Assembly (NCBI GenBank): GCA_018826515.1
Contig: JAHKAM010000052.1
Span: 1-41,891 of the forward strand
Direction of reading: 5' to 3'
DNA length: 41,891 nt
Source of the DNA: Alphaproteobacteria bacterium
GTDB taxonomy: Bacteria; Pseudomonadota; Alphaproteobacteria; Caulobacterales; Caulobacteraceae
Of the stretch, positions 2,275 to 40,814 are shown one piece after another. Every line of letters begins with the position of its first letter. Position 1 is the first letter of the stretch. The translations under genes were made by a program, and so were the position numbers. The notes under the pieces are model-generated. The model was not told where the DNA came from and searched no databases. It saw nothing but the letters and a program-made list of their open reading frames with translations.

Positions 2275-3361
2275 GCCGTTCGGCGGCGAAGCGCTCGCGC
2301 GGCAGGGCCTCGGGGCATTCGTCGCGCATGAAGGCCAGCAGCTTCTCGCGGATCTCGCAGCGCAGGTCGAAGGCGGCGCCGGCGTTGCGGGCGCTGGCCA
2401 GACAGCGGACCTGGGCGGTGCGTTCGGTGATCTCCACGACCTGCAGGCTGATCACGTCGCCGTCCCAGAACAGGCTGGCGCGGCAGATCCGCTCCAACTC
2501 GGCGCGCAGCCGGTCGATCGGGGCTTCATAGTCGACATACAGGAAGGCCGAGCCGATCAGCCGCGCCGACTCCCGGGTCCAGTTCTGGAACGGGGTGTTG
2601 ATGAAATAGCTGAGCGGCAGGACCATCCGCCGCCAGTCCCACAGCTTGACCACCACATAGGTCGAGGTGATCTCCTCGATCGTCCCGAACTCGCCCTCGA
2701 CGATAACCGCGTCGTCCAGCCGGATCGGCTGGGCCGTGGCGATCTGGATGCCGGCGACCATATTGGTCAGGAAGGGCTGCAGGGCCAGGCCGGCGATGAT
2801 GCCGACGACGCCCGCCGAGGCCAGCAGCGACAGACCCCACTGGCGCACCTCTGCGATGGTCAACAGGGCCAGGCCGAGGGTGATGATGCCGATCAGCACG
2901 GCCGCGACCCGCTGCAGGATGCGGGCCTGGGTGACGTGTTTGCGGGCGACCAGATTGTCCTCGGTAGCCATGTTGAAGCGGCGCAGATAGACCACCGCCC
3001 ACATGTCGGAGGCCCCGACCAGCATCCAGCCGATGGTCAGGATGAAGGCGAACAGCAGGGTCTGGCGGATGAACAGGGACGGCTCGGGGGCCAGGGGCGA
3101 GACCGTGACGGCCAGGGCCAGGGCGGCGATCATCACCGCGATCCTCACCTTCAACCGCGCCCGGCCGACCGTGCCGCGCCAGAAGACGTCGCGCTTGCGC
3201 ACCGCCAGTTTCAGCAGGGCGAAGACCAGCTGGTTGGCCGCCCAGCCGACGAAGACGAAGACCGCCACGATGACCGAGATCACCACCCATTCGGGCAGCC
3301 AGTGGAACTCGCGCCAGAGGCGGAAGACTTCGCGGGTCAGGTCCTGGACGAAGGGGGGCAT
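2237..3361 (-). CDS. MscS-family small-conductance mechanosensitive channel
   Basis: A 374-residue membrane protein. Several hydrophobic segments fill the first ~200 residues, including one near 25-45 and the Gly/Ala-rich pore-lining helix around LLASAGVVGIIAGLALQPFL. A soluble beta domain follows (DDAVIVEGEFGTIEEITSTYVVVKLWD, split here only by wording), typical of the MscS middle domain. Such channels open under membrane tension during osmotic downshock. The gene follows murG by 25 nt on the same strand, so it may be read with the end of the dcw operon. Its 3' end overlaps the convergent hypothetical gene. Confidence 0.85.
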   Translation of the reverse strand: MPPFVQDLTREVFRLWREFHWLPEWVVISVIVAVFVFVGWAANQLVFALLKLAVRKRDVFWRGTVGRARLKVRIAVMIAALALAVTVSPLAPEPSLFIRQTLLFAFILTIGWMLVGASDMWAVVYLRRFNMATEDNLVARKHVTQARILQRVAAVLIGIITLGLALLTIAEVRQWGLSLLASAGVVGIIAGLALQPFLTNMVAGIQIATAQPIRLDDAVIVEGEFGTIEEITSTYVVVKLWDWRRMVLPLSYFINTPFQNWTRESARLIGSAFLYVDYEAPIDRLRAELERICRASLFWDGDVISLQVVEITERTAQVRCLASARNAGAAFDLRCEIREKLLAFMRDECPEALPRERFAAERLSSPDAAPPGRS

Positions 3362-4719: not shown

Positions 4720-5901
4720 CTACGGCAGTATCCGCCCGCGATCCGGCAGGCTGGCGCCCGGTTCGTAGGCGCCCGGACGGCGGCGGGTCAGGGCGAGCGC
4801 GAGGCCCATGGTCAGCCCCATGGCCAGCATCGACGAGCCGCCGTAGCTGATGAAGGGCAGGGTCATCCCCTTGGTCGGGATCAGGTTCAGGTTCACCGCG
4901 ATATTGATGCAGGCCTGCAGCCCGATCAGCATGAACAGGCCCGCGGCCGCCGTCTGTTCGAAGGCGTCGGTCAGCTTCATCGCCCGCCGCATGCCGCGCA
5001 CCACGATGAAGGCGTACAGGCCGATCATCACCAGCGACAGCACCAGACCGAACTCCTCGGCCCCCACGGAATAGATGAAGTCGGTGTGCAGGTCGGGGAC
5101 GTGGCGCTTCATCACCCCCTCGCCCACCCCGCGTCCGACCAGGCCGCCGGCGCGGATGGCCTCGGAGGCGCGGTCGATCTGGTGGGTGTCGGCGGTCTCG
5201 GGCGAAAAGAAGCGGCTCAACCGGTCACGCATGTGGCCGAAGGCGAAATACAGGCCGACCACGCCGCCCGCCCCCGCCGCGGCCAGGGCCGCCACCCATT
5301 TGAGCGGCACCCCTGCCATGAAGAAGACGGCCATGAAGGTGGTGGTGATCAACAGGGTCTGGCCGATGTCGGGCTGGATCAGCATCAGGCCGACGCACAG
5401 GGCCCAGGTGGCGAAGGCGATGGAGACGCCGGGCACCCCCTGCCCCTTCTGGGCCTCGGAGAACATCCAGGCCGCGAAGACGATCAGGCCCGGCTTGGCG
5501 AACTCGGACGGCTGCAGGCTGAACGGGCCGAAATTGATCCAGCGCGCCGCGCCCTTCACCTCATTGCCGATGAGGGGCAGGGCCATCATCACCAGTATGG
5601 CGCAGACCAGCGCCAGCAGGGCGATCCGGCGCACGCCGCGCGGCGACAGGAGTGAGGCGACCAGCATGGCGATGGTGCCGCCCGAGGCCCAGACCAGCAT
5701 CCGCCACGAATAGTGGAAGGGATCGACGATCGATTCATCGACCAGAATGGCCGCCGGGCTGGAGGCGAAACTGAGCGCCACGCCGAGCCCGATCAGGGTC
5801 AGGGCCGCGGCCAGCAGGCCGCGGTCGATGGTCCAGAACCATTTCGCGATCGGGCTCTGGTCGTTGCGCGAAAAGGCGGGGCTGTAGCTGTGCGCGGTCA
5901 T
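4720..5901 (-). CDS. ftsW: FtsW, SEDS-family septal peptidoglycan polymerase
   Basis: A 393-residue polytopic membrane protein with about ten hydrophobic segments. SEDS marks include GRGVGEGVMKRHVPDLHTDF followed by IYSVGAEEFG, and the C-terminal LPFISYGGSSM. FtsW polymerises lipid II at the septum together with the transpeptidase FtsI, encoded further up the same operon. The ATG at 5901 lies 6 nt after the murD stop codon, so the two are co-transcribed. A long repeat follows the stop codon before murG. Confidence 0.95.
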   Translation of the reverse strand: MTAHSYSPAFSRNDQSPIAKWFWTIDRGLLAAALTLIGLGVALSFASSPAAILVDESIVDPFHYSWRMLVWASGGTIAMLVASLLSPRGVRRIALLALVCAILVMMALPLIGNEVKGAARWINFGPFSLQPSEFAKPGLIVFAAWMFSEAQKGQGVPGVSIAFATWALCVGLMLIQPDIGQTLLITTTFMAVFFMAGVPLKWVAALAAAGAGGVVGLYFAFGHMRDRLSRFFSPETADTHQIDRASEAIRAGGLVGRGVGEGVMKRHVPDLHTDFIYSVGAEEFGLVLSLVMIGLYAFIVVRGMRRAMKLTDAFEQTAAAGLFMLIGLQACINIAVNLNLIPTKGMTLPFISYGGSSMLAMGLTMGLALALTRRRPGAYEPGASLPDRGRILP

Positions 5902-15385: not shown

Positions 15386-15448
15386 CGCCCAGGCGGCGCT
15401 CAAGCAGCGAGCGACCGCGTCGCGAGCGGTAGCGCCCCCGAAAATTAT

Positions 15449-15824
15449 GTCAGACGGCCTGTAAGCCGGGTTCTGTACCGCCCGAAAGCGGTGACGATCA
15501 TTCCTCTGGACCGCCCGTTGCCGGACGGTTCTCGCGACCTACCCGGACGCCTCGGGCGGTGAACCCTGCGGTCGAAACCGCGCGACATCCCTATTCGGTC
15601 TTGCTCCAGGCGGGGCTTGCCATGCCGTCCCTGTTGCCAGGCACGCGGTGGGCTCTTACCCCACCCTTTCACCCTTCCCTGCCTCGCGAGGCAGGCGGTT
15701 TGCTTTCTGTGGCGCTATCCCTCGGGTCGCCCCGGGCGGGTGTTGCCCGCCGCCTCTTCACCGTGGAGCCCGGACTTTCCTCGACAGAGGCATAACCCCC
15801 GCCGCGACCGCCCGGCCGTCTGAC
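15449..15824 (-). ncRNA. rnpB: RNase P RNA (class A)
   Basis: RNA of about 376 nt, catalytic part of RNase P, which trims 5' leaders from pre-tRNAs. On the minus strand the conserved blocks appear in order: GAGGAAAGTCCGGGCTCC near the 5' end, GGGTGAAAGGGTGGGGTAAG then GCCCACCG in the middle, TAGGTCGCGAGAACC further on, and the 3' block AGAACCCGGCTTACAGGCC. Helix P1 is given by GTCAGACGGCC at the 5' end and its complement at the 3' end, which fixes the limits. Several short ORFs over this stretch are artefacts. Confidence 0.95.
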
Positions 15825-21335: not shown

Positions 21336-21408
21336 GGGCGCGTAGCTCAATGGTTAGAGCCGACCGCTCATAACGGTCTGGTTGGGGGTTCGAGTCCCTC
21401 CGCGCCTA
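21336..21408 (+). tRNA. tRNA with CAU anticodon (Ile2 or elongator Met)
   Basis: A complete cloverleaf can be drawn: acceptor GGGCGCG with CGCGCCT (first pair G-U), D stem GCTC/GAGC, anticodon stem GACCG/CGGTC with loop CTCATAA, T stem GGGGG/CCCTC with loop TTCGAGT, and discriminator A at 21408. CCA is not fully encoded. The anticodon CAU could be read as Met, or as Ile when C34 becomes lysidine; the anticodon stem lacks the G-C run of an initiator. Its 3' end is the left attachment site of the island. Confidence 0.92.
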
Positions 21409-21415
21409 CCGCCTC
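21394..21415 (+). other. attL, left attachment site in the tRNA 3' end
   Basis: GTCCCTCCGCGCCTACCGCC plus TC covers the T arm, acceptor 3' strand and two bases beyond the tRNA. It matches the right site 30168-30189 at 20 of 22 positions. Confidence 0.8.
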
Positions 21416-21469
21416 ACAGGCCGGGCCCAGTGGTGGCAAAGAGTAGCAGTGAAACAAGGGCTTACGGAG

Positions 21470-21500
21470 CTTGCCCTGTTACACATCACTGCTACACACG
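21470..21500 (+). repeat. 31-nt direct repeat, left copy (candidate integrase arm site)
   Basis: Starts CTTGCCCTGT and ends TGCTACACACG, with a variable centre of 10 nt. The same 31-nt layout occurs at 30079-30109. It ends 4 nt before the integrase ATG, so integrase binding here could also repress its own gene. The distance from the att core is ~55 nt, fitting an arm-type site. Confidence 0.7.
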
Positions 21501-21504
21501 AGGC

Positions 21505-23160
21505 ATGAAAGCCGTGGCCGGTCACTCCCATCTCACCCGCAGGGGCAGCACCTACTATTTCCGCCGCCGGGTGCCGCTCGCGCTCCGCCGGGCCTTCCCG
21601 TTTGAGGCTTGGATCGAGAGCCTCCACACCACCGACTTTGAGGAAGCCAAGCGGCTGGTCCGCGCACGGTCGGTGGAGATCGACAACCGGATCACGGCGG
21701 CGCTGGCAGAGGGTAACTCCACCCCCTCGCCTCCGCTGCGACCGGACGAGGCCGCCTCCCTCGCTAAGCTATGGCTGAAGGAGCGGCTGGACGCTGACGC
21801 TGAGTGGCGGCTTACGGGCGGGCCCGACTGGCACCGCAATCAGGGGACGGTGCTGCTGGAGAAAGCGGCGGCGGCCCGATGCCAGCTCGCCAAGGGCCTC
21901 TGGCGCTGCGTCGGAGGGGACGCGGACGAGGTCCTGGCCAAGGCCGGACGCTTCTACGGGAAGGAGGACCCCAGCCGTCGCCTCATGGCCGGGCAGCTTC
22001 TTGAGGCTCAGGTAGCCTACTTCGATGCGGTGGAGGCACGGCAGCAGGGCGCAGTCGTCAAGGCCCCGGACGCCTCTCCCCTGCCCCTGAGCGCCCCCTC
22101 AGGGCAGCCCTCCGGTCGCACAGTGGACGACCTCATCACCGCCTATACCGCCGACAAGGCAACGGCCCACGGCGAGGGGGTGGTGATGAAACGGTACCGC
22201 CACATCTTCGCCGCCCTGCGGGAACTGCTGGGCCCCCAGCGGGTGGTCAGTACTCTGACGCGGGCAGATGGCCGGGCCGTGCGGGACTTCCTCGCCACCG
22301 TGCCCAAACACGCCGGGAAGAAGTACCCGAAGCTCTCCCTGAGGGAGGCCGTGGCGGCGGGCGCGCGAGACGAAGCGCCTAAGCTCGTCCCCAAGACCGT
22401 CGCCTCGTACATGCAGAACCTGAACGCCATGATGAACTGGGCCGCAGCCGAGGAATGGATCGAGCGCAACCCGTTCTCCGGCCTTGTCGGCAGGGCGGAG
22501 TCTCAGGCTGAGCGACGGGGGTACACGGCAGACGAACTAGACCGGCTGTTTGTAAGCCTGATCCCGCTCAAGGGCCTCACGCCATGGCAGTTCTGGCTCC
22601 CGGCCCTCGCCCTCTACACCGGGGCGCGGCTCAACGAGCTGGCTCAGCTCCGCGTTGAAGACGTGGTCGAGGTGGAGGGGACCCCCTGCATCCGCATCTC
22701 CCCGTACACGGCGGAGGGGCTCCAGTCTGGCGACAAGCGGGTGAAGACCGCAGGCAGCAAGCGGACGGTCCCCCTACACGCCGACCTCGTTGCGCTGGGC
22801 TTTGTCGAGTTCGCCCGGGGTCGGGGCAAGGGCCCAGCCCGCATCTTTTACGAGCTGCCGGAGGGGCCGAACGGCGGCTACTCGCATGAGGCGTCCCGGT
22901 GGTTCGGCAAGCACCTCGGCCGGACGGGGGTGAAGCGCCCCGGCCTCGTCTTTCACTCGTTCCGCCACACGTTCAGGGACGCCGCGAGAGATGGCGGAGT
23001 TCCCGACCCGGTGGCCGAGGCGCTAGGCGGCTGGAGTTCGCGCAAGGTCTCCGATCAGTACGGCAGTCGGACGCGGATCAAGCCCTTCAAGAGCGCGGTG
23101 GACGCACTGGATTATGGTGGGTTCAGCCTGCTGAAGGTGGCGGGAGCGCACCCGGCCTAG
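21505..23160 (+). CDS. int: Tyrosine site-specific integrase of the island
   Basis: A 551-residue tyrosine recombinase that would insert and excise the island at the tRNA. The N-terminus HLTRRGSTYYFRRRVP is the DUF6538-type head seen in many alphaproteobacterial integrases. A SAM-like core-binding part lies near 230-330. The catalytic residues can be seen: R375 (TGARLNELAQL), H484 and R487 (HSFRHTF), W510 (GGWSS) in the place of the second His, and the nucleophile Y519 (SDQYGSR). I use the ATG at 21505; the longer frame reads through the tRNA. It lies directly beside attL, as usual for such islands. Confidence 0.93.
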   Translation: MKAVAGHSHLTRRGSTYYFRRRVPLALRRAFPFEAWIESLHTTDFEEAKRLVRARSVEIDNRITAALAEGNSTPSPPLRPDEAASLAKLWLKERLDADAEWRLTGGPDWHRNQGTVLLEKAAAARCQLAKGLWRCVGGDADEVLAKAGRFYGKEDPSRRLMAGQLLEAQVAYFDAVEARQQGAVVKAPDASPLPLSAPSGQPSGRTVDDLITAYTADKATAHGEGVVMKRYRHIFAALRELLGPQRVVSTLTRADGRAVRDFLATVPKHAGKKYPKLSLREAVAAGARDEAPKLVPKTVASYMQNLNAMMNWAAAEEWIERNPFSGLVGRAESQAERRGYTADELDRLFVSLIPLKGLTPWQFWLPALALYTGARLNELAQLRVEDVVEVEGTPCIRISPYTAEGLQSGDKRVKTAGSKRTVPLHADLVALGFVEFARGRGKGPARIFYELPEGPNGGYSHEASRWFGKHLGRTGVKRPGLVFHSFRHTFRDAARDGGVPDPVAEALGGWSSRKVSDQYGSRTRIKPFKSAVDALDYGGFSLLKVAGAHPA

Positions 23161-23355
23161 AGGATGGCCCTAGAAGCCTCAGGGAAGCCCGTACAGCGCC
23201 CTCCTGATCCTCGCCGATATCAGCCCGCCGCGAGCCCCGGAAGGGACTCAGCGACTCTCGCTGAGTCAAACAGCGGGTCAGCATGTTTTGGGGTGGCTGC
23301 GCCCCCTCCATCCGCCGGTCCACTCATGGGGCCCTGAGGGTGACCAAAGGGACCA

Positions 23356-23444
23356 AGAGGTAACCTGATGGTTCCTCTAGGTGATGACGATGAGGAAGAA
23401 CTATAAGGAAGACTTACAGGGAGACCTATAGGTAACCTATAGGT
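23356..23444. promoter_or_regulatory. Hairpin and paired 10-bp palindromes downstream of int
   Basis: At 23356-23378 AGAGG-T-AACC pairs with GGTT-CCTCT around a TGAT loop. At 23424-23433 and 23435-23444 the perfect palindrome ACCTATAGGT occurs twice, 11 bp apart, which is one helical turn. The second pair looks like a cooperative operator, and the first could end the integrase transcript or serve as an RNA processing site. The stretch is A-rich compared with its surroundings and encodes no gene that I can support. Confidence 0.5.
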
Positions 23445-23532
23445 TCTTACGTAGAAACAAGGGCGAGACTTTCAAGAGGCCGCCAGCTCGCTACTGTTGG
23501 AGTGGGTCTCCCGCGCAACGGTCTCCCCGGTG

Positions 23533-23561
23533 TCGAATAAAGTCGCACTATAGGAGACCGG
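23533..23561 (+). promoter_or_regulatory. T7/SP6-like phage RNA polymerase promoter, repeat 1
   Basis: A 29-nt unit with the core GTCGCACTATAGGAGACC. With the G at 23553 as +1, 13 of 19 positions from -17 to +2 match the T7 consensus TAATACGACTCACTATAGG, including the unbroken run CACTATAGG; the block GTCGCACTATAGGAG also matches SP6-type promoters at 12 of 15. A hairpin (CCGG-A-GCC / GGC-C-CCGG) follows. 25 of 29 positions equal repeat 2. Confidence 0.6.
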
Positions 23562-23589
23562 AGCCCTCAGGCCCCGGCTTCCGACGATG

Positions 23590-23618
23590 TCGAATTAAGC
23601 CACAGTATAGGAGACCGG
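23590..23618 (+). promoter_or_regulatory. T3-like phage RNA polymerase promoter, repeat 2
   Basis: The core is AATTAAGCCACAGTATAGG. With the G at 23610 as +1, 15 of 19 positions match the T3 consensus AATTAACCCTCACTAAAGG. GAGACCGG follows as in repeat 1, and a GACCGG/CCGGTC hairpin forms directly downstream. The start is 57 nt after repeat 1. Confidence 0.6.
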
Positions 23619-23642
23619 AAGCCACTCACGCTCTGCCGGTCC

Positions 23643-23671
23643 CCGAATAAACCCTCACCCTAGGAGAACCG
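23643..23671 (+). promoter_or_regulatory. T3-like phage RNA polymerase promoter, repeat 3
   Basis: The core is AATAAACCCTCACCCTAGG. With the G at 23663 as +1, 15 of 19 positions match the T3 consensus, with an unbroken AACCCTCAC run. GAGAACCG follows and an ACCGC/GCGGT hairpin forms downstream. It is the most diverged unit (21 of 29 positions equal repeat 1), with the -4 to -3 positions changed. The start is 53 nt after repeat 2. Confidence 0.55.
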
Positions 23672-23747
23672 CACCGCCTAGCAGCGGTCGGCAGGCCACC
23701 ACGTCCGCTCTCCACCACACCCGGGCTCAGCCCAACATCTCCCTCTC

Positions 23748-23780
23748 AGGGCCCCGGTCATCCGGCGGCCCTTTTTCTTT
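23748..23780 (+). terminator. Intrinsic terminator after the promoter-like array
   Basis: AGGGCC pairs with GGCCCT, with an inner CGG/CCG pairing around TCAT, followed by TTTTTCTTT. It lies 85-195 nt downstream of the three promoter-like units and only 9 nt before the next ATG, so transcripts from the array would mostly end here as short non-coding RNAs unless read through. Confidence 0.75.
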
Positions 23781-23789
23781 GGACCGACC

Positions 23790-24140
23790 ATGACCAAAAC
23801 CACCACCACCACCGCCGTGCGAGCTTACGACTTCGACGGAGCACCCGTCGTTCACGTGCAGATGTCCAATGCCCGGGGCACCTTCGCCACGTTCGACGCT
23901 GCCGACTACGACCACCTCCGTAAGCTGTACCCCGGTCGCTGGAGGCTGAACGACAACGGGAGAGGAGCAATCTACGTCCGCGCCGTCAGGCCGGGCGAAT
24001 CAAGTCGAAACGTGAACCTGGCCCGCGAGGCACTGCAACCGGGACCGGGGCGCATCGTCCGCTACCGTGATGGAAATCGCCTAAACCTTCGTCGGTCTAA
24101 CCTGCTGGAGGAGTGGCGGAGGAACGCGCCACGCCATTAG
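23790..24140 (+). CDS. HNH-family homing-endonuclease-like protein lacking catalytic histidines
   Basis: A 116-residue protein with the layout of phage HNH proteins of the AP2-associated type: FATFDAADYDHLRKL near 32-46, then W51-R-L and GRGAIYVR, then the region where such enzymes carry LHR and DHIDGN. Here these read NLAREAL (77-83) and VRYRDGNRLNLRRSNL (90-105), so the expected histidines are missing while the closing N-L-RR-NL stays intact. A DNA-binding role without cleavage is my inference. The start at 23790 directly follows an intrinsic terminator and has only a weak ribosome site. It converges on the HIRAN-BRCT gene with 4 nt between the stops. Confidence 0.7.
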   Translation: MTKTTTTTAVRAYDFDGAPVVHVQMSNARGTFATFDAADYDHLRKLYPGRWRLNDNGRGAIYVRAVRPGESSRNVNLAREALQPGPGRIVRYRDGNRLNLRRSNLLEEWRRNAPRH

Positions 24141-24144
24141 CGGC

Positions 24145-24966
24145 CTAAGTCGGGAGTGCGTTCCGAAACTCGGCCTCTCCCCAGATGCGAATTGGCTGAC
24201 CTGACGCGGCAGCTTCCCTTGCGACCACAAAGGTGCGGCTTCGTTCAACCCCGAACGTGAATGGTCGGTCGCTACCTATTACGATCAGGTCAGTAGTCGT
24301 TTTGCCAACGCCCGCAACGATGGTCGCCCCCATGGCCGCCAGTTCGTCAGGCAAGTTGCTTTGTGCGGCCCCCATAAAAGCTATTCGTCTTCCCAACAGC
24401 GGGCCGGTACCGCTAGAGGCGGGTCGTGGGGGCCGCTCCTTCTTGGGCCATACCCGTGGCTCTCCATGCATAAGGCCACCTCCGAAATCCAGCGGGCCCC
24501 ATCCCGGGATAGCCAGCCGGACGCCGAAATGACCTTCGTCATACTGGTTCGTCCGCCAGCCGCCGGTGATACGAGCTCCACACGTCGCGGAGCCTAAGCC
24601 GACAGCAGCAAGGGCATCCTTCATGCGAGGGGCCACTTCTCGGGACAGGAAACCAACGCGCTGGCCACCGATCAGCACCTCAACGGCATTCGGGTCAAAG
24701 CGGTTGGATGGGTCGGGCCGGACCGTGGCGATGCACTCGTGCTCGACGCCGTCGCGAGTATGGCTACCGCACTGAGCCATGATCGCCCTTTGATAGTGGC
24801 TTTCGCCAACAACCTCTGTCGGGAAAGAGCCCGCTCTCCACTGAACATGGCCTCGCTTCGGCAGAGGTCCCGGTGGTGGCTCGACGCTTGAGCGTAGCGG
24901 ACGCTCAGCTTGCGGCGGTGTAGCCGCCTCGGTGGACCGTCCGAACAGTTTTGAAATCCAGCCCAC
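24145..24966 (-). CDS. HIRAN and BRCT domain protein
   Basis: A 273-residue protein. Residues 50-115 look like a HIRAN domain (VVGESHYQ, then PSNRFDPNAVEVLIGGQRVGF), a fold that in SWI2/SNF2 proteins binds DNA 3' ends or damaged DNA. Residues ~188-271 look like a BRCT domain (GRRIAFMGA ... ELAAMGATIVAGVGKTTTDLIVIG). The linker is Pro-rich. I choose the GTG at 24966, because CAGGAG lies 7 nt upstream of it. Its role in the island is unknown; recognition of DNA ends or repair intermediates is an inference. Confidence 0.75.
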   Translation of the reverse strand: MGWISKLFGRSTEAATPPQAERPLRSSVEPPPGPLPKRGHVQWRAGSFPTEVVGESHYQRAIMAQCGSHTRDGVEHECIATVRPDPSNRFDPNAVEVLIGGQRVGFLSREVAPRMKDALAAVGLGSATCGARITGGWRTNQYDEGHFGVRLAIPGWGPLDFGGGLMHGEPRVWPKKERPPRPASSGTGPLLGRRIAFMGAAQSNLPDELAAMGATIVAGVGKTTTDLIVIGSDRPFTFGVERSRTFVVAREAAASGQPIRIWGEAEFRNALPT

Positions 24967-25313: not shown

Positions 25314-26036
25314 ATGGTCAAGGCGGTGGCGTACTTCCGGGTCTCGACGGTGGCGCAGGGGCGCAGCGGTCTGGGTCTGGAGGCGCAGAAGGCGGCGGTG
25401 GCGGAGCTGGCCCGGCAACGGGACTGGAAGGTGCTGGCGGAGTTCACGGAGGTGGAGAGCGGCAAGCGGAACGACCGGCCCGAGCTGGTCAAGGCGCTCC
25501 ACCACGCCAAGGTGACGGGAGCCGTCCTCGTCATCGCCAAGCTCGACCGCCTCAGCCGTAACGCCGCGTTCCTTTTGACCCTCAGGGATTCGGGGGTGCG
25601 CTTCATGGCAGCGGACCTGCCGGACGCGTGCGACCTCACGGTAGGGGTCCTCGCGGTCATCGCGCAGGCGGAGCGGGAGGCCATCTCCCAGCGCACCAAA
25701 GCAGCCCTCGGGACGGTGAAGGCTAAGCTCGCGGCCGGTGAGGCCCACATCTCCCGGCGCTCGGGCCTGCCGGTCGCCCGGCTGGGCAACCCTCAGGGGG
25801 CCAATGCGCTCCGGCGGGCCGCCCGGGGGAACGCTGCAGGGTTGGCGGCGGCGAAGGCCAACGCCGATACCCACGCCCGCGACCTCGCTCCGGTGGTGGA
25901 GCGGCTTAGGGCGGAGGGATGCGCCTCCCTCGCCTCTCTCGCTGCAGCTCTCAACGCCGCCGGGGTGCGGACCCCTCGGGACCGGACGTGGCATGCGTCG
26001 TCCGTAAGAAACTTGCTGGCCCGACTGGAGGCCTGA
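25314..26036 (+). CDS. Serine recombinase of the resolvase/invertase family
   Basis: A 240-residue small serine recombinase. The catalytic Ser is S11 in AYFRVST. AKLDRLSRN and GVLAVIAQAEREAISQRTK, which carry the conserved arginines and the E helix, follow, and a C-terminal helix-turn-helix-like region (SLAALAAALNAAGVRTP, spelled here loosely) ends the protein. AAGGAAGG precedes the ATG. Such enzymes resolve or invert DNA between short sites. No clear paired site was found nearby apart from the small palindrome near 25280. It may act on the island, or regulate it by inversion. Confidence 0.9.
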   Translation: MVKAVAYFRVSTVAQGRSGLGLEAQKAAVAELARQRDWKVLAEFTEVESGKRNDRPELVKALHHAKVTGAVLVIAKLDRLSRNAAFLLTLRDSGVRFMAADLPDACDLTVGVLAVIAQAEREAISQRTKAALGTVKAKLAAGEAHISRRSGLPVARLGNPQGANALRRAARGNAAGLAAAKANADTHARDLAPVVERLRAEGCASLASLAAALNAAGVRTPRDRTWHASSVRNLLARLEA

Positions 26037-26519: not shown

Positions 26520-27446
26520 TCAGCCTTCCCCGGGTGAATGGAGTAGCGCCTCGATTCCGAAGGCGTCGGCGTCGTGCATCATCACAGCGTATTGGTCCGA
26601 GCTATGGAAGCGGGCCAGGTTCTGTCGCAGCTCCTCCTCAATCCGCGCTCGCTGGTGCGCGGGAATGGCCCGGTCGGCCACCTTTAGCTTCAACGCCTGC
26701 GCCTTCAGGTACTCCCTCAGGAGTCCCGGCAGGACGACCCTTAGGCAGGGCAGGCGACCGGCCCCGAGGTTGACCTTGGTCCCCTCCCATTTGTCCCGCG
26801 TCGGCGCGATCATCCCGAACACGGCGAACCGCCCCATCTTCGCGTAGGTGAAGGCCCCGGTCCCCATCGTCACCACGTCGATCCCCGTGCCCCGCATCAG
26901 GTAGCGATTGATGTTGTCCGGCAGGTCGTGTTGCGGGCCGCCCCCGAGGGGGCCGAGGAACGGGATGAGGTGCTGCTCGTACCGGCCGGGGTGCGGAAGC
27001 TCCCCCAGCAGGAAGCGCCGCCACGTCTCCTCAGCGCCCCTTGCGGCAACCTGCTGGGCTTCGCTCAGGTGGTCCATGGGCTGCTCGTCCATCCCGTGCC
27101 GGAGGATGCGCCACGAGACGGAGGCGCAGAAGCGGATAAGCCAGTCGCTGTAGTCCACGCGGCGCACGTCGCCCGCGCTCCACGGGTTGAACAACTCGTT
27201 GCAGAAGCGCCGCTCAAGGCCGCTGAACCGAGCCTCGCAGGAGCCGCATAGCCACCGCTTCTTGAGCCCGTCTTGAACGCGTCGGGTGGGCGCATCACCG
27301 GCCCGGATGTGGCCTGTCGAGGAGGTCTCCCGAAGCCACCGGAAGACAAAGGCCGGGACGATGTGGCTGACCTTAAGGGGCCCGTGGGTGCCGCAAAGCG
27401 CGCAGGGCGCTACTCCGGCTTCCACCGAAGCTTTCCGCAACTGCAT
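26520..27446 (-). CDS. HNH-like zinc-binding protein, partner of the ATPase
   Basis: A 308-residue protein. The N-terminal part has CALCG (C15, C18), SHIVPAF (H28) and LCGSCE (C67, C70), the pattern of a zinc-supported HNH nuclease fold. The rest, with WRILRHGMDEQ and GAGRLPCLRVVLP, is a family of unknown function often annotated as hypothetical. It overlaps the ATPase gene by 37 nt, so the two are probably translated together. ATPase followed by HNH nuclease is the order of Septu-type (PtuA-PtuB) defence systems, but whether this is a true member cannot be decided from sequence alone. The third catalytic residue of HNH is not obvious. Confidence 0.65.
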   Translation of the reverse strand: MQLRKASVEAGVAPCALCGTHGPLKVSHIVPAFVFRWLRETSSTGHIRAGDAPTRRVQDGLKKRWLCGSCEARFSGLERRFCNELFNPWSAGDVRRVDYSDWLIRFCASVSWRILRHGMDEQPMDHLSEAQQVAARGAEETWRRFLLGELPHPGRYEQHLIPFLGPLGGGPQHDLPDNINRYLMRGTGIDVVTMGTGAFTYAKMGRFAVFGMIAPTRDKWEGTKVNLGAGRLPCLRVVLPGLLREYLKAQALKLKVADRAIPAHQRARIEEELRQNLARFHSSDQYAVMMHDADAFGIEALLHSPGEG

Positions 27447-29740
27447 TCAGCCCCAGCGTTCCCCCGCCTCGTTCCGACCTGCGAGTTGCAATGGTCGCAC
27501 TGGAATAGGCCCAGCACAGCCTCACAGCTTTCGATCAGGTCTAGAGCTTCCGCATCGGTTCCATTGAAGGTGTGAGTGCCTCGGTTCGCCCACGCCTCTA
27601 ACTGCGGCTTGACCTTCGCCACCGCCGCAGCCGCTGCGTCGTGGCTCACGTAGTTGCCATCCTGCTTGATGCGGAAGCTATGAGGCACGGCCTTATGGAG
27701 CGCCAAGATGAACTGCCCGGAAGTCCGCGTATCGTTCGCGGCTCCTCGCAGAAACGGGACTGCAAGACCGATCCGTTCTCCGATCTGGCCTAGCGCTACA
27801 TCCATGATCCGGCGAACGTTCGAAAGGGCGTCTTCGGGATCACTTCCGACTTTCGCCTTCGCCTTCTCCCAGTCGAGAGCCTGATCAGCGAAGGCCATCC
27901 CTGCTCCCGGCGAGGCGAAGGCGAGCAACTTTCGGAACCTCCATGTCGGAAGCATCCGCTCAAGCTCGAAGTACCACTCGCGGTCATGCGTGAGCAGGAC
28001 CACCTGACGGCTGTCGAACTCCTGCTGCAAAAGTGGCGCGACCCGGTTCCTGTGTTCCCGGTCAAAACTGATGACCACGTCGTCGAGGATGATCGGTTGG
28101 TCGGCCTCACCCGCTTGATTGGCCATGGCGAGGAAGATGCAAAGCCCCAGCGCGTTCCGCCGCCCTTCGGAGAGCGTCAGGCGGGGACTGTGCAGAGCCT
28201 TGCCGTGGAAGCGCAGCGCTACGTCGATGGCCTTGTCGTTCCCTTCAGGGATGACGAGACGTAAGTCGCTAACCGCTTCGTTTGGCTGCAAGATGCCCCA
28301 GTAGCGCTGAATATCGCCTGAGATGCTCTCGAAGGTTTGGCGGGCTCGATCCGCCATTTCCTCCCGGACCTCCTTCTCCAGAGCCTTGACGAGGTTGATC
28401 AGCGCTTCCCCGCGCCGGATTGCGGCCCTGAGGGCATTTGCTTTGTACGAACCGAAGAGGACGTCCGCATCCTGTTGGTCCTTGATCAGGGTCTGCACCT
28501 CTTGGGGCAAATCCTTCGCATCCTCGGCGGCGCGCGCCACCAGCGGCTCGACCTTCGCCTTTAGGTCTGCGATGTCCGACGCCCCACAGGTGGTGCGAAG
28601 GTCCGCCACCGTGATCCCGATGAGGTAGGCCGCCCCCGCTTCCGGCTCCGGTGTGAGCCCGGCCCTCCAAGCGCTCAGGTCCTCCTTGTTCGCGACTAGA
28701 CGGAGCCTTCCCACCTCGTCGCAGACCTCAGCAATCGCGCCTCGGTGGTCTTCGTAGACCTTCTGCGCCTGCTCCAGTCTCTGCTGTTCCTTGGCGATAT
28801 GCCCCTTGAAGTCCTCCGCATCGATCGAAAGCCCGCAGGCGGGACAGCTCATTGATCCGTTGAGAGTCTCGTCCGCCGACGCAAACCTGTCAGCCGCGCT
28901 GAGAACTTCCAGCCGCTCCTTGATCAACGGGGCGGCTACCTCGGCAACTTTGGCTGAGCTCTCTTCTACCTTCGCCAGTCGGGCCCCTAGGTCGCTGCTG
29001 CCTATCTCTGCCACCGCCGCAGCCCGACGCTGGTCTGCGCTGGAGGAGGCGCTCTGTGTGTTGATGGCGGCGAGAACGTCGGTGAGGGTCTTCAGCGAGG
29101 ACTCAATAGGGGCGGCCGGGACGTAGGTTTTCCGAAGCTCCTCCAAGCGGGCGAGGAGCTGTTCCCGGGTTGCCTCACCGAAAACGTCGGCGCGGCGCGC
29201 TTCAGCCTGTTGAACTTGACCGCGTAACTTCTGGAGGTCGCCTATTCGCTCGACCGCCGCTACGAGCTTGTGGAGATTGTCCGCCATCGCCTCCAGCCGG
29301 GCCAGACCCAGCAGCGGAACTACAGCGCTGTATTTTTCGCCCTTGGTCGCGCTGATAAACCTTGCAAGGTCCTCCTGACGCAGGGCCGTACGGGCATATT
29401 CCCACCCCATCGCTGTGGGCCCCGTTCTGGCCCTCGCGGGTGCCCCAGATGTCCACGTGAGCTCCTCGGTGGAGCCGTCGGTAAGGGTCGCCACGACCTT
29501 CGTGCTTTGACCGGGCGGGCGGGCGGTGTTGACCAGTCCGTTCTCCTGATAGCGGCCCGCGTATTCATGGCTGAGGTGGCTAACCCGGCCGCCACTGAGG
29601 AGCGCCTCCAAGCCGTCAACGTATGAGCTCTTCCCGGCCCCGTTCGGGCCGTAAACAACGGCGGACTTCCCATCGAGCTGGAGCGTGGCGTCTGCTGCTG
29701 CTCCCCGGAACCATTGCAAACGGACGGACTGGAGCTTCAC
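27410..29740 (-). CDS. SMC/RecF-like AAA ATPase with zinc hook, putative defence protein
   Basis: A 776-residue protein. Walker A is GPNGAGKS (31-38). A long coiled coil (~150-480) is broken by a Rad50-like hook, CPAC (C299, C302). The ABC signature LTLSEGRRNALGLC and Walker B QPIILDDVVISFD follow near 525-565, and LTHDREWYFELERML carries the His switch. The C-terminus ends in a zinc ribbon (CDHCNSQ ... CSCGK). This is the design of RloC-, PtuA- and Rad50-like ATPases that sense DNA ends or phage. The GTG start overlaps the upstream small ORF by 4 nt. Its partner is the HNH-like gene downstream. Confidence 0.85.
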   Translation of the reverse strand: MKLQSVRLQWFRGAAADATLQLDGKSAVVYGPNGAGKSSYVDGLEALLSGGRVSHLSHEYAGRYQENGLVNTARPPGQSTKVVATLTDGSTEELTWTSGAPARARTGPTAMGWEYARTALRQEDLARFISATKGEKYSAVVPLLGLARLEAMADNLHKLVAAVERIGDLQKLRGQVQQAEARRADVFGEATREQLLARLEELRKTYVPAAPIESSLKTLTDVLAAINTQSASSSADQRRAAAVAEIGSSDLGARLAKVEESSAKVAEVAAPLIKERLEVLSAADRFASADETLNGSMSCPACGLSIDAEDFKGHIAKEQQRLEQAQKVYEDHRGAIAEVCDEVGRLRLVANKEDLSAWRAGLTPEPEAGAAYLIGITVADLRTTCGASDIADLKAKVEPLVARAAEDAKDLPQEVQTLIKDQQDADVLFGSYKANALRAAIRRGEALINLVKALEKEVREEMADRARQTFESISGDIQRYWGILQPNEAVSDLRLVIPEGNDKAIDVALRFHGKALHSPRLTLSEGRRNALGLCIFLAMANQAGEADQPIILDDVVISFDREHRNRVAPLLQQEFDSRQVVLLTHDREWYFELERMLPTWRFRKLLAFASPGAGMAFADQALDWEKAKAKVGSDPEDALSNVRRIMDVALGQIGERIGLAVPFLRGAANDTRTSGQFILALHKAVPHSFRIKQDGNYVSHDAAAAAVAKVKPQLEAWANRGTHTFNGTDAEALDLIESCEAVLGLFQCDHCNSQVGTRRGNAGAECSCGKLRWKPE

Positions 29741-30167: not shown

Positions 30168-30189
30168 GTCCCTCCGTGCCTACCACCTC
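30168..30189 (+). other. attR, right attachment site
   Basis: GTCCCTCCGTGCCTACCACC plus TC, differing from attL at two positions (C to T in the acceptor strand and G to A after the tRNA). The upstream bases do not form a tRNA, so this is the displaced original 3' end. Confidence 0.8.
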
Positions 30190-31733: not shown

Positions 31734-33203
31734 CTAGCGGCGCTGCTGCGAACGGGAGACCTGGGCCAGAACCGCCTGCAGGCGGCCCGCCGAGGGGCCG
31801 AAGCCGGACAGGGCGGAGTCGATGCGGAAGGCCACGGCCTGGGCCTTGTCCTGATCGGCCACCCCCGCAACGCCGAGCGCGAAATAGCTCGACATGGCGA
31901 ATTTGGCCTCGGGGCTGCCCTGGCGCGCGGCCTCCTCGAACCATTTGAAGGCGCGGGCGTAGTCGGCCGGCAGGCCGATGCCCTCGGCGTACATCACCGC
32001 CAGCACCAGCTGCGCCTCGGACGAGCCGTTGACGGCGGCCATCTGGATGGCGCGGACGCGTTCCAGATGCGACAGACGGCCCTCCATCGGGTGGCCCAGC
32101 ATGGCTTCCAGCGTCTCGATCTGACGCTTGGACAGGTCCTCCGGCCGCTGGGCGACCGTGTCGCTGACCCCGAGGTAACGCAGCGCCCGGCCGACGTGCA
32201 GGAACGGCAGCTCGCCGCCCATCCGCCCCAGGGCGTATTCATAGGCGTCGCCGCGCGGACGGCTCTCGTCCGAGAAGGGCACGCCCGACTGGGGCGCGGT
32301 GTTGGGATAGAATTCGAACGGCGGCGTCCACTGCCGCGCCTTGGTCTCGACGAACCGCTGATAGGTGTCGCGACTGGGGGCCGAGCGCTCGAAATCCCGC
32401 AGCAGGACATAGGCCCCGACATCGCCGGTCTGCACCGCCAGATAGTTGTACAGATAGGCGTCGACGTCGTTGCGCTGGAACAGGTTGGTGGCGGCGTAAT
32501 AGCCGCGGCGATTCCGGTCCCGGCTGTTGCCGCTGGCGTTACGGCCCCAGGCCTCGCGCGCCTGGCGATTGTCTTCCGGCTCGCCGAACGGGCCGTAGAG
32601 GCCGTCGTGCAGCCGCGCCAGGGTGCGGTAGCCGTGGGCGTCCTGGGTCGAGAGCACATAGATGACGCGGTCGCGCACCGACTCCTGCTCTTCCCGGGTC
32701 ATCTGGCCCAGCTGGCGGTCCAGCCGCTGATAGGCCGTGTGCCGCTCCCAGGCCCGGCAGTCGTCGTATTTCGACAGCGGCCGCCAGCCGCCGAAGCCGC
32801 CCCGGTCGACGCGGTTGATCGGGGCGTAGCCCTCGCTGTTGGCCAGCGCCATGGCGTACCAGGTGGCGCTCTCGATCGGGTCCTCGATATTCTTGTCGGT
32901 GGCCCGCAGCGCCGCATAGCGGCCGCCCAGCTCCAGCTGGGCGAAGAAATCACCGCGGAAGGCGGCGCGGCGCAGCGCGCGCAGGCCGGTTTCCTGGGCG
33001 TTGAACTCGGATCCGGTCAGCGAGGCCGGTCGGGGACAGGCATTGGAAGCCGGGTCGCTCCGCTGCCAGAACTGCATGCCGTTGCCATTGCCGCACGAGA
33101 CCATGCCGAGCGCGGTCAGCGCCAGCACGCCTGCGACCGCCGCGACGGCGACCGGACCGCGACTCCGGGAGCGGTCTTCCGGATTGGATCGACCTTCGCT
33201 CAT
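31734..33203 (-). CDS. SEL1-repeat protein, probable lipoprotein
   Basis: A 489-residue protein. The N-terminal hydrophobic segment ending LTALGMVSCGNG has a lipobox-like cysteine, so export and lipid anchoring are likely. SEL1-like repeats are best seen near the C-terminus (AQLVLAVMYAEGIGLPADYARAFKWFEEA, here in sections, then GSPEAKFAMSSYFALG). Such repeats act as protein-binding scaffolds in the envelope. I use the ATG at 33203, preceded by GAGGGGG; the longer frame adds 13 unlike residues. It is the first gene of a pair with the beta-helix gene. Confidence 0.78.
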   Translation of the reverse strand: MSEGRSNPEDRSRSRGPVAVAAVAGVLALTALGMVSCGNGNGMQFWQRSDPASNACPRPASLTGSEFNAQETGLRALRRAAFRGDFFAQLELGGRYAALRATDKNIEDPIESATWYAMALANSEGYAPINRVDRGGFGGWRPLSKYDDCRAWERHTAYQRLDRQLGQMTREEQESVRDRVIYVLSTQDAHGYRTLARLHDGLYGPFGEPEDNRQAREAWGRNASGNSRDRNRRGYYAATNLFQRNDVDAYLYNYLAVQTGDVGAYVLLRDFERSAPSRDTYQRFVETKARQWTPPFEFYPNTAPQSGVPFSDESRPRGDAYEYALGRMGGELPFLHVGRALRYLGVSDTVAQRPEDLSKRQIETLEAMLGHPMEGRLSHLERVRAIQMAAVNGSSEAQLVLAVMYAEGIGLPADYARAFKWFEEAARQGSPEAKFAMSSYFALGVAGVADQDKAQAVAFRIDSALSGFGPSAGRLQAVLAQVSRSQQRR

Positions 33204-34719: not shown

Positions 34720-35564
34720 TGCAACTCACCCGCTCGGTTCTCTACCTGCCCGCCAGCAATCCGCGGGCGATCGAAAAGGCCCGCGGACTCAACGCCGACG
34801 CGGTGATCCTCGACCTCGAGGACGCCGTCGCCCTCGACGCCAAGGCGGAGGCCCGACAGGCGGCGGCGGCGGCGCTCAAGGCGGGCGGCTTCGGCCCCCG
34901 CGTCGGGGTCCGGATCAACGGCCTCGGCACGCCCTGGGGCGCGGATGATCTGGCGGCGCTCGGCGACCTGACGCCTGACTTCGTGGTCGCGCCCAAGATC
35001 GAAAGCCCCGAATCCGTCCGCGAGGTCGCCGCGCGCCTGTCGCCCGGCGTCGCCCTGTGGATCATGATCGAAACGCCGCTGTCGGTTCTCCGGCTCGACG
35101 CCATCGCGGGCGCCGGGGCGCCGCTGGCGGCCCTGATGCTCGGGATCAACGACTTCGGCGAACAGATGAACCTCGTCCTCGGGCCGGACCGTGATCCGCT
35201 CAAGCCGTGGCTGGCCGCGGTCGTCGCCGCCGCGCGCGGCCACGGCCTGCTGGCCATCGACGGCGTGGTCAACGCCACCGACGACGCCGACCGCCTGCGG
35301 ACCGAATGCCTGCAGGGTCGCGCCTTCGGCTTCGACGGCAAGAGCCTGATCCACCCGGCCCAGATCGATGCGGCCAACGCCGCCTTCTCGCCCTCGCCGG
35401 AAGAGGTCGCCCGGGCCCGCGAAGTCGTCGCCGCCTTCGCCTCGGCCGAGGCGGACGGCAAGGGGGCGATCCGGGTCGGCTACCGCATGGTCGAACGCCT
35501 GCACCTCGACGCCGCCTGCCGGTTGCTGGCGCGGCATGACGCGGCGAACCCAGGCAACCGATGA
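34719..35564 (+). CDS. CoA-ester lyase, HpcH/HpaI aldolase / CitE family
   Basis: A 281-residue TIM-barrel protein of the CitE/MclA type. Family marks: SVLYLPASNPRAIEKA at the start, DAVILDLEDAV (metal/acid residues) near 27-37, VRINGLGTPW, PKIESP, and LMLGINDFGEQMN, with GKSLIHPAQI near the end. Members cleave or form malyl-CoA, citramalyl-CoA or similar esters. The start at 34719 overlaps the SDR stop. The exact substrate cannot be told, although the FabH-like gene nearby hints at acyl-thioester chemistry. Confidence 0.9.
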   Translation: MQLTRSVLYLPASNPRAIEKARGLNADAVILDLEDAVALDAKAEARQAAAAALKAGGFGPRVGVRINGLGTPWGADDLAALGDLTPDFVVAPKIESPESVREVAARLSPGVALWIMIETPLSVLRLDAIAGAGAPLAALMLGINDFGEQMNLVLGPDRDPLKPWLAAVVAAARGHGLLAIDGVVNATDDADRLRTECLQGRAFGFDGKSLIHPAQIDAANAAFSPSPEEVARAREVVAAFASAEADGKGAIRVGYRMVERLHLDAACRLLARHDAANPGNR

Positions 35565-38603: not shown

Positions 38604-40814
38604 ATGCGCATGCTTCTCCTCTCCGCCGGGCTCGCCGCCCTGACCGCCGCCGCCTCGCCCGTCCTGGCCGATGAGCCTCGCGGCCCGCTCATCTCGGACG
38701 AACCGCAACAACTGCCGTCCGTCACCGTTCTGGCCACCCGGACCGAGACCCGCGCCGACGAGACCCCCGCCACTGTCACTGTCTTCACCGCCGAACAGAT
38801 CGAGGCGATGCTGGCCACCGACATAAAGGATCTGGTCCGGTTCGAGCCCGGCGTCAGCGTGGTCAGCCAGCCGTCGCGTTTCGGCGCCGCCCTCGGCGCG
38901 ACCGGCCGGGCCGGCAATGAAGGCTTCACCATCCGCGGCCTCGGCGGCGACCGGGTGCTGATGGTGGTCGACGGGGTGCGCGTCCCCGACGGCTTCGTCT
39001 TCGGCGCCCAGAGCGTCGGCCGGGGCAGCTACGCCGATCTGGACCTGATGCGGTCGGTCGAAATCCTGCGCGGCCCCGCCTCGGCCCTTTACGGGTCGGA
39101 CGGCGTCGCGGGCGCCGTGGCCTTCAGCACGAAAGACCCCGCCGACCTGCTCCGTCCCGGCGAGTCCTTCGGCGCACGGGCCCGGGTCGGTTACAACTCC
39201 GCCGACGAAGGCCTGACCACCTCGGCCATGATCGCGGGCCGCAGCGGGGCGTTCTCCGGCCTGCTCGCCTGGACCGGCCGCGACAGCCACGAGACGGAGA
39301 CGCAAGGGACCGTCGGCGGCGTCGGCGGCCTCCGCACCATGGCCAATCCGCAGGAGACCCGTTCCGACGCCATCCTGCTCGAGGGCGTCTGGGACATCGC
39401 CCCGGGCCACAGCCTGCACGCGGGCTACGACTGGTACGAAAGCAAGACCACCACCGACGTGCTCAGCGGACGCAGCGCCACGGTGCTCGCATTGCTGGCC
39501 GACGACGAGACCCGCCGCAGCGGCTGGAACCTCGGCTGGCGCGGCGATGCCGTCCTCGGTCTCGATCGCGCCCGGGCCACCGTCTACGCCCAGCAGGCCG
39601 AGACCCGGCAGTTCACCTTCGAGGACCGCACGCCGGCGGTCGATCGCACCCGCGACAACAGCTTCGACAATGAGGTCTTCGGCGTCTCAGCCGACGCCGT
39701 GAGGACCCTCGGCGCCCACCGACTGACCTTGGGAGGCGACGGGTCCCGCACGACCCAGAGCGGCGTCCGCGACGGCACGGTCCCGCCCTTTGGCGAGACC
39801 TTCCCGACCAGCGCCTTCCCCGAGACCGACTTCACCCTCGCCGGCCTGTTCGTGCAGGACGAGATCACCCTGCTGGACGGCGCCCTGCGGCTGATCCCTG
39901 CCCTGCGCTGGGACAGCTATGACCTCTCCACCGCCGACGACCCGCTCTATCCCGGCGCCCGCGCCGACCAGTCCGGCGACCACGTCTCGCCAAAGCTGGG
40001 CCTGGTCTGGCAGGCGACCGACATCGTCCAGCTGTTCGGCAACTGGGGCGAAGGTTTCAAGGCGCCGACCCCCAGCCAGGTGAACCAGTTCTTCTCCAAC
40101 CCGGCGTTCGGCTACACCTCGGCCCCCAACCCGAACCTCCGGCCCGAGACCAGCCGCAGCCTCGAGATCGGGGCCCGTGTCCGCGACCTCGATCTCGCCG
40201 GCGGCCGCCTCTCGGCCCAGCTGGTCGGCTTCCGCTCGGACTATGAGGACTTCATCAGCCAGCAGGCGGTGTCGGGATCCTTCACTCCGATCGACCCGGC
40301 GGTGTTCCAGTTCGTCAACTTCACCGACGTCGAGATCTCGGGCGTCGAGGCCAAGGCCGACATCTGGTGGGACAACGGCGTCAGCGCCCGCTTCGCCGCC
40401 GCATACGCCGCGGGCGATGCCACCAGCGCCGGCGTCACCACCGCCCTTCCCTCCATCGACCCGGTCAAGGTCGTGTTCGGCCTCGGCTATGACCAACCCG
40501 CCGGCCGCTTCGGGGGCCAGGCCATCGTCACCTGGTCGCAGGCCAAGGACGCCGCCGACACAGACGGCCTGGGCTGTTTCAACGCCAATCCCGCCCTCGG
40601 CTGCGCGGTCGGCGAGAACTTCGCCCTGCTGGACCTGACGGCGTACTGGAACCTCAGCGACCGGGTCACCGCGCGGATCGGCGTCTTCAACGTCCTCGAC
40701 GAAAAATACAGTTGGTGGAGCGACCTCCGCGGGGTCGCCGCCACCTCGGCGGTCCTCGACGCCTGGACCCAGCCCGGCCGCAACCTCGGCCTCTCCCTCG
40801 CCTTGCGCTACTGA
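38604..40814 (+). CDS. TonB-dependent outer-membrane receptor, haem/haemoglobin type
   Basis: A 736-residue outer-membrane receptor. The signal peptide covers ~1-22 (cleavage near VLADEP). A TonB box-like start (LPSVTVLATR) is followed by the plug domain, ~50-160 (PATVTVFTAEQIEAML, FTIRGLGGDRVLMVVDGVR, VEILRGPASALYGSDGVAG), and a 22-strand barrel that ends in an aromatic-like residue (SLALRY). The plug is closest to the haemoglobin/transferrin/lactoferrin receptor group. I chose the ATG at 38604, at the signal peptide; the upstream frame runs through the Fur box. The ligand is inferred from the group and the DUF6607 neighbour. Confidence 0.9.
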   Translation: MRMLLLSAGLAALTAAASPVLADEPRGPLISDEPQQLPSVTVLATRTETRADETPATVTVFTAEQIEAMLATDIKDLVRFEPGVSVVSQPSRFGAALGATGRAGNEGFTIRGLGGDRVLMVVDGVRVPDGFVFGAQSVGRGSYADLDLMRSVEILRGPASALYGSDGVAGAVAFSTKDPADLLRPGESFGARARVGYNSADEGLTTSAMIAGRSGAFSGLLAWTGRDSHETETQGTVGGVGGLRTMANPQETRSDAILLEGVWDIAPGHSLHAGYDWYESKTTTDVLSGRSATVLALLADDETRRSGWNLGWRGDAVLGLDRARATVYAQQAETRQFTFEDRTPAVDRTRDNSFDNEVFGVSADAVRTLGAHRLTLGGDGSRTTQSGVRDGTVPPFGETFPTSAFPETDFTLAGLFVQDEITLLDGALRLIPALRWDSYDLSTADDPLYPGARADQSGDHVSPKLGLVWQATDIVQLFGNWGEGFKAPTPSQVNQFFSNPAFGYTSAPNPNLRPETSRSLEIGARVRDLDLAGGRLSAQLVGFRSDYEDFISQQAVSGSFTPIDPAVFQFVNFTDVEISGVEAKADIWWDNGVSARFAAAYAAGDATSAGVTTALPSIDPVKVVFGLGYDQPAGRFGGQAIVTWSQAKDAADTDGLGCFNANPALGCAVGENFALLDLTAYWNLSDRVTARIGVFNVLDEKYSWWSDLRGVAATSAVLDAWTQPGRNLGLSLALRY

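Follow-up and report, generated by a model that had tools for sequence, protein, structure and literature searches.

Three tandem units inside a small integrative element of the window (the whole stretch of 41,891 nucleotides of Caulobacteraceae DNA analyzed here) share their motif class with sites in a group of temperate T7-like phages around Caulobacter phage S2B, and judged by their sequence they are likely promoters for the RNA polymerase (RNAP) of such phages, which would switch on the adjoining gene for a 116-residue protein at infection. More tentatively, the small tRNA-associated elements that carry such arrays could form a new satellite family on temperate T7-like phages, induced by the helper RNAP via tandem promoter arrays and in some cases equipped with their own versions of ejection proteins.

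Three co-oriented units precede a small gene

The units were recovered as one direct-repeat family (D1) with copies at 23528, 23585, and 23638 on the + strand, in agreement with the original prediction of three + strand units at 57- and 53-nt spacing. In a T7-type reading, the distance from AAT to the first G is 17 nt, which gives predicted starts at 23553, 23610, and 23663; the +1 positions proposed earlier are the same and fit this geometry.

23536..23557, + strand: unit 1 (U1), -17 to +5, AATAAAGTCGCACTATAGGAGA, predicted +1 at 23553
23593..23614, + strand: unit 2 (U2), -17 to +5, AATTAAGCCACAGTATAGGAGA, predicted +1 at 23610
23646..23667, + strand: unit 3 (U3), -17 to +5, AATAAACCCTCACCCTAGGAGA, predicted +1 at 23663
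23519..23560, no strand: inverted-repeat arms of 8 nt flanking unit 1 (23519-23526 / 23553-23560), by eye, predicted hairpin

The hallmarks of such promoters are present, namely an A+T block near -17, a fixed distance to the G at +1, a G-rich start, and strand specificity. A reading of 23500-23700 as RNA structure (fold z -3.05) was rejected because the arms are not alike between the units.

The promoters of T7, T3, K11, and SP6 each have a recognized consensus, and 23-nt strings of these were scanned against both strands of the window. The T3 consensus places U3 first and U2 joint second, the K11 consensus U2 first and U1 second, and the SP6 consensus U1 and U2 joint first. The T7 consensus, which is printed in an excerpt of PMC10134795, is weak in the window, with U1 and U2 each at 13/23 and at rank 4 with 15 ties. 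A recount by eye reproduced the earlier hand counts of 13/19 to T7 for U1 and 15/19 to T3 for U2 and U3. With a matrix derived from eight units of other elements, U3 scores 30.9, U1 26.3, and U2 18.0, the next-best place in the window reaching 10.1. In a DNA similarity search, one 22-nt match only was found between the window region and phage DNA.

The three units are not chance. That their likeness to promoters arose by accident in an A+T-richer intergenic stretch could draw on the 13/23 match to the T7 consensus, which is common to 15 places in the window, but is rendered highly improbable by the three ordered copies, by the matrix ranks and shuffles, and by the recurrence of the array in other genera.

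The units lie in an 8.8-kb element at a tRNA gene

The original prediction had placed the units in a tRNA island, and this is borne out by a tRNA-Met gene with an integrase gene alongside and by two att-like repeats, which delimit an element of ~8.8 kb:

21336..21410, + strand: tRNA-Met (CAT), insertion site (ARAGORN, Rfam)
21394..21415, + strand: left att-like repeat, tRNA 3' end, 18/20 identical to the copy at 30168
21382..23160, + strand: tyrosine integrase open reading frame with DUF6538 (Pfam PF20172 2.2e-16, PF00589 7.2e-8)
23340..23460, no strand: A+T-richer stretch, GC 0.44, with AGGTAACC / CCTATAGG words (repeats D4)
23748..23780, + strand: terminator-like hairpin, 10 pairs and one bulge, followed by TTTTTCTTT (fold -20.0 kcal/mol, z -3.1)
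23790..24140, + strand: 116-residue protein, gene adjoining the array, HNH/AP2-related via distant homologues only
24145..24966, - strand: weak HIRAN-domain protein (Pfam E 1.2e-4, under the cut-off)
25314..26036, + strand: serine resolvase-type protein (PF00239 2.6e-25)
26520..27446, - strand: phrog_26326 phage-family protein, no function assigned (E 6.4e-47)
27410..29740, - strand: SMC/RecF-like ATPase, like defence ATPases (LmuB) (PF02463 3.8e-12; LmuB 1.4e-20)
30168..30189, + strand: right att-like repeat (direct repeat D5)

The true start of the integrase probably lies further inside its open reading frame. The A+T-richer stretch at 23340-23460 is a possible origin, operator, or regulator site; stretches resembling it were seen by eye near the arrays in L015 (5520-5690) and L019 (5265-5375). 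The hairpin at 23748-23780 sits downstream of the array and ahead of the 116-residue gene; a simple terminator scan listed no terminator. For the 116-residue protein itself, neither Pfam nor tblastn against phages and plasmids gave a match. The SMC-like ATPase gene (27410-29740) and the adjoining phrog_26326 gene (26520-27446) could be a two-gene defence cargo of the island. Outside the island, the window also holds a bacterial class A RNase P RNA (15446-15823, - strand, E 3.8e-97).

The gene content bears on whether the island serves defence, with promoters for phage polymerases acting as the infection sensor of an anti-phage gene. Such promoter logic would suit a sensor, and one product of the island is an SMC-like ATPase akin to those of defence systems; its gene, however, lies on the opposite strand rather than behind the array, and the PADLOC matches are single proteins that make up no system. 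We therefore regard this explanation as improbable.

Arrays recur upstream of homologues of the 116-residue protein

Genes homologous to that of the 116-residue protein occur in 11 of 299 genomes of the order and in 7 of 385 genomes of the class, the window's own genome being counted in both. Units of the same shape lie upstream of the homologues in G000 (three), G221 (four), G289 (four), G121 (one), G161 (two), and G126 (one). In G232 (L049/L017), the matrix finds one unit-like site upstream of the homologue (5675, score 20.4, 1/60 shuffles); divergent TATATGG units seen there by eye, likewise upstream of the homologue, are not top matrix sites. Units are thereby found in 7 of the 11 homologue-bearing order genomes. 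None were found near the homologue in G168 and G282, and for G047 and G285, whose homologues have E-values near 1e-3, the array search was confined to 3.1-kb loci.

The units found share the orientation of the downstream homologue, and their spacing across elements ranges from 30 to 121 nt. Array and homologue can be separated by another gene, ParB-like in L013 and helicase-like in L014, and in L015, L016, and L019 the units carry CACCCTTGG or a similar sequence at the place of the TATAG of T7 promoters.

These features also bear on the possibility that the units are operators or origin iterons for an element protein (a replication initiator, a ParB-like or a winged-helix protein), their likeness to promoters being due to ancestry or chance. 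It is in keeping with the varying number of direct repeats ahead of a ParB-like or helicase-like gene, the lack of conservation of the TATAG part in three loci, and the A+T-richer repeat region next to the array. Nevertheless, the variable spacing, the shared orientation of units and downstream homologue, and the presence of same-class sites at promoter-like positions of complete T7-like phages (see below) argue against it, and we consider it rather unlikely.

Beyond the elements listed, the matrices found no arrays at class and other genome-contig loci with a homologue, the homologue loci L018, L020, L047, L050, L052, and L195-L200 included. Lone weak matrix sites occur in L020 (15.2 at 4809, - strand), L197 (13.1 at 540, + strand), and L195 (14.9 at 2446, - strand; 3/60 shuffles), and L201 has one high site (+100, 21.9, 0/60 shuffles) far from its homologue. 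Repeats of similar shape, ATTAGGTTGCACTTA[AT]G, are present in L048 (3316-3571, 5387) and L051 (4352-4775), where the matrix gives no score. These repeats have an SP6-like shape, precede members of the same gene family in Novispirillum and a metagenome-assembled genome, and have counterparts in six IMG/VR stretches, three of which are one sequence. In L197, a tandem 12-nt repeat, GTGATTGCCTTA, occupies 2892-3049 upstream of one of the three 116-residue-family genes of G911.

Three elements use a tRNA-Met site, those of the window (8.8 kb), G221 (10.5 kb), and G161 (12.3 kb), with two, one, and three mismatches per 20 nt between their respective att repeats. At each of these sizes we find what marks a satellite, a small integrative element with att repeats and an integrase that lacks a full set of virion genes. 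Integrase, array, and an HNH-like gene co-occur in G289, G221, G161 (integrase by eye), and the window, and the integrase is of DUF6538 type in the window and G221 elements.

The motif class occurs in temperate T7-like phages

For the phage scans, a matrix was built exclusively from 11 element units, the three of the window included. In Caulobacter phage S2B, its two best sites score 19.6 and 14.8, both on the coding strand, and 0/100 dinucleotide shuffles reach either. They lie just after the polymerase gene (36874) and at the end of the exonuclease gene, before the head block (26234). In phage jiawei, the two best sites (17.7 and 13.4, reached by 2/100 and 1/100 shuffles) are found at 22026 and 32502 on the coding strand, in places that correspond to those of S2B; each extends over the final 6 nt of the gene before it, and one small gene separates the polymerase gene from the site at 32502. 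A mismatch search added a third site before the RNAP gene, at 39537 in S2B and, more weakly, at 35472 in jiawei (5/19 mismatches). Matrix and mismatch sites together thus mark three corresponding places per phage: before the RNAP gene, after it, and between the exonuclease gene and the head block.

In a G490 prophage, the RNAP gene is followed by AATTAGTGCTGCCCTTAGGAGC and preceded by AATTACTGCTGCCCTTAGGGGG. The IMG/VR locus L212, whose RNAP is 81% identical to that of S2B, has the same post-RNAP sequence and may be the same prophage. Hence, the motif class stands at coding-strand gene boundaries of the polymerase-encoding S2B, jiawei, and G490 prophage.

A pattern scan of IMG/VR returned 47 stretches. 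One 31-kb contig (3300018405_000046) accounts for three of these, and contigs that share its sites for another three. On the 31-kb contig, four GAAT[AT]AACCCCTAATATAGGAGAG sites lie in one orientation, one of which begins 29 nt before the start codon of terL. Its S2B-homologous genes comprise terL (41%), portal, tail tube, DNA polymerase, and exonuclease; a related contig adds a primase-helicase, and no RNAP was found on either of these contig fragments. The phage units closest to those of the window come from 3300018405_000046 (U2 18/23, U1 and U3 16/23), a fragment on which no RNAP was found, and none of the phages examined has units identical to the window's.

The motif class is therefore not missing from T7-like phages and widespread in hosts, the outcome that would have told against the original prediction; the opposite holds, with occurrences in S2B, jiawei, the G490 prophage, and the IMG/VR contig, while the exact pattern TCGAATNAANNCNNNNNNTAGGAGA is present in 2/390 family genomes (three sites; reversed-pattern control 0 throughout). 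The proposed likeness to T7, T3, and SP6 promoters thus stands as regards the phage-promoter class, but the closest relatives are those of the S2B group rather than the enterobacterial ones.

The suggested comparison with T7-like phages of Caulobacterales likewise holds for the S2B group and fails for the four lytic phages examined. Lytic Caulobacter and Brevundimonas autographiviruses (Lullwater, AA, Percy, and Cd1; accessions taken from an excerpt of PMC11053796) were rejected as a source, as their own promoter-like repeats in comparable places differ: TTTTGATACCGTATAAC in Lullwater, GATACCCTCGGGCACAA in AA, GATACCCTCAAGCACAA in Cd1, and GTACATTCTCGCTACA in Percy. Best scores of the element matrix were 10.1 in Lullwater (scanned over 1-40671 of 44638), 11.5 in AA, 8.3 in Percy, and 14.4 (non-coding strand) and 8.6 in Cd1, the latter three phages being scanned whole. 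A weak left-end site is common to AA (412) and Cd1 (422).

The promoters of T7-like prophages from the same genus (G285, G354 twice, G186, and G393) seem different by eye. Five loci, L219, L221, L222, L223, and L224, hold S2B-like T7-type prophages of the same genus with polymerase, capsid, portal, and ejection genes; their post-polymerase sequence ..CCTATTGAA.. suggests another promoter type. L223 also has a unit-like site (10904, + strand, 19.0) between the polymerase and portal genes, on the strand opposite the polymerase gene.

In the reverse direction, a matrix of eight phage sites run over 83,740 window positions places U3 first, U2 second, and U1 41st (-0.5). With the four 3300018405_000046 sites added, the resulting 12-site matrix puts U3, U2, and U1 at ranks 1, 2, and 3. 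The array is the top-scoring site by this matrix in the 9-kb window island and in L013, L014, L015, L016, and L019. The best score was reached by 0/60 shuffles in the window island, L014, L016, and L019 and by 2/60 in L013, while the units of L015 are not significant against it (35/60). The matching is partly circular, since the search for phage sites relied on matrices or patterns taken from the elements, or on inspection by eye; the independent part of the reverse test is the corresponding positions in separate phages together with the phage gene content.

Relatives of the element share genes with the same phages

Caulobacter phage S2B (MN857473) and phage jiawei (OR464703) are Autographiviridae, each with a T7-like RNAP and an integrase. 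The earlier link to lysogenic T7-like phages fits these integrases.

Products of the G221 element include a protein of the T7 gp14 family (PF24072, 2.5e-15) and a phrog_308 internal virion protein; they comprise a gp13-like (41%) and a gp14-like (54%) one and a homologue of S2B gp057 (37%, 6e-12). The G161 element encodes a gp16-like protein of 1338 residues, the last third of which matches phrog_6651, an internal virion protein. Just two phage records match the gp14-like protein of G221, jiawei (57%) and S2B (54%), and these two are also the best matches of the gp13-like protein among 141 phage records. The gp16-like protein matches 41 phage records at 22-28% identity, S2B included, with jiawei giving the best E-value (4e-20). 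In S2B, gp057 is a putative regulator; it adjoins the integrase gene and has a weak winged-helix match (0.0029, under the cut-off). In phage LUZ100, according to an excerpt of PMC10134795, a MarR-like regulator occupies the equivalent place and has been proposed to control the polymerase promoter.

The recorded host of jiawei (L211, OR464703) is Mycolicibacterium smegmatis. At the protein level, it shares 55-68% identity with S2B in terminase, portal, capsid, and polymerase and 32-63% in the other genes tested. As its proteins are this close to those of a Caulobacter phage, the host label may deserve a check.

Genes for gp14-like proteins occur in 7 of 388 family genomes, one of them marginal and with a stop (G002); five of the six non-marginal genomes also encode a T7-like polymerase, the exception being G221. 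A T7-like RNAP was found in 0/7 array-bearing genomes, the window's included, with 3/3 phage controls positive. Accordingly, no helper resides alongside an array in these genomes, and if the units act as such promoters, an infecting phage would have to supply the polymerase. Fourteen S2B proteins, the integrase among them, gave 0/14 matches in the window island at E 1e-3, and the S2B integrase had no match in the elements tested. Overall, relatives have in common with the putative helper gp13-, gp14-, and gp16-like genes, a regulator homologue, and promoters, and the window element the promoter class alone.

Could the island instead be a decayed S2B-like prophage whose promoters are relics without present function? 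The G221 element, with adjacent gp13- and gp14-like genes as in S2B plus the regulator homologue, would be compatible with such decay. Yet the integrase differs in type (DUF6538 in the window and G221, that of S2B being unmatched), integrase, array, and HNH-like gene recur jointly in four elements, and the arrays have retained units in several copies. Decay is thus an unlikely explanation, though we rank it above a defence or an operator function.

Discussion

Our preferred reading is that the units are promoters for the RNAP of S2B-group phages. Host polymerase presumably does not use them; upon infection by an S2B-group phage, the phage polymerase would transcribe the 116-residue gene and pass the hairpin at 23748-23780, which may shield the gene from host read-through. 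This last detail is weak, as similar hairpins ahead of the L013, L014, and L048 homologues did not reach significance in the stretches folded (z -0.1, -0.2, and -1.0). The elements may be satellites of, or parasites on, S2B-like phages. Small size, an integrase, and ejection genes in two relatives make a satellite lifestyle likely, and the homologue of the putative S2B regulator in one relative fits it as well. Moreover, each element may follow its own helper, given that the divergence of units between elements resembles that of the sites among S2B, jiawei, and G490.

T7-like phages have long been described as strictly lytic. If our reading is true, they become linked to satellites, and a helper would be sensed via its single-subunit RNAP, a direct and simple induction switch. 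Orthogonal promoter-polymerase pairs would be on offer for Alphaproteobacteria, and the arrays would provide a sequence handle to find further such elements. A literature search, in which some matches were judged from the search summary, returned no paper on T7-like promoters associated with islands or satellites or on satellites of Autographiviridae.

Among known systems, the predicted promoters of S2B-group phages resemble the units in the AATWA-type block at -17, in the 17-nt distance to the first G, and in the CTAGGAG-type start; they lie on the coding strand at gene boundaries, and the L014 unit and jiawei share CCTTGCTCTAGGA in register. The phages, however, have single copies, whereas the elements have tandem copies, and the middle bases differ. 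The T3, K11, and SP6 promoters agree with the units at 12-16 of 23 positions but belong to enterobacterial phages with no link to the window's host. Temperate Autographiviridae of the LUZ100 type, as described in an excerpt of PMC10134795, combine polymerase promoters, an integrase, and a MarR-like regulator; LUZ100 is a complete phage of a Pseudomonas host and is likened here by gene content, not by motif.

Phage satellites such as P4, PICI, PLE, and tycheposons are small integrative elements with a tRNA site, an integrase, and few or no virion genes, tied to one phage group. Window-type elements resemble them in being small and integrative, in their tRNA site and integrase, in having few or no virion genes, and in their tie to one phage group. 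They differ from P4, PICI, PLE, and tycheposons in that no capsid or packaging genes were seen in the members looked at, and they are set apart by their link to a T7-like helper and by their putative polymerase promoters.
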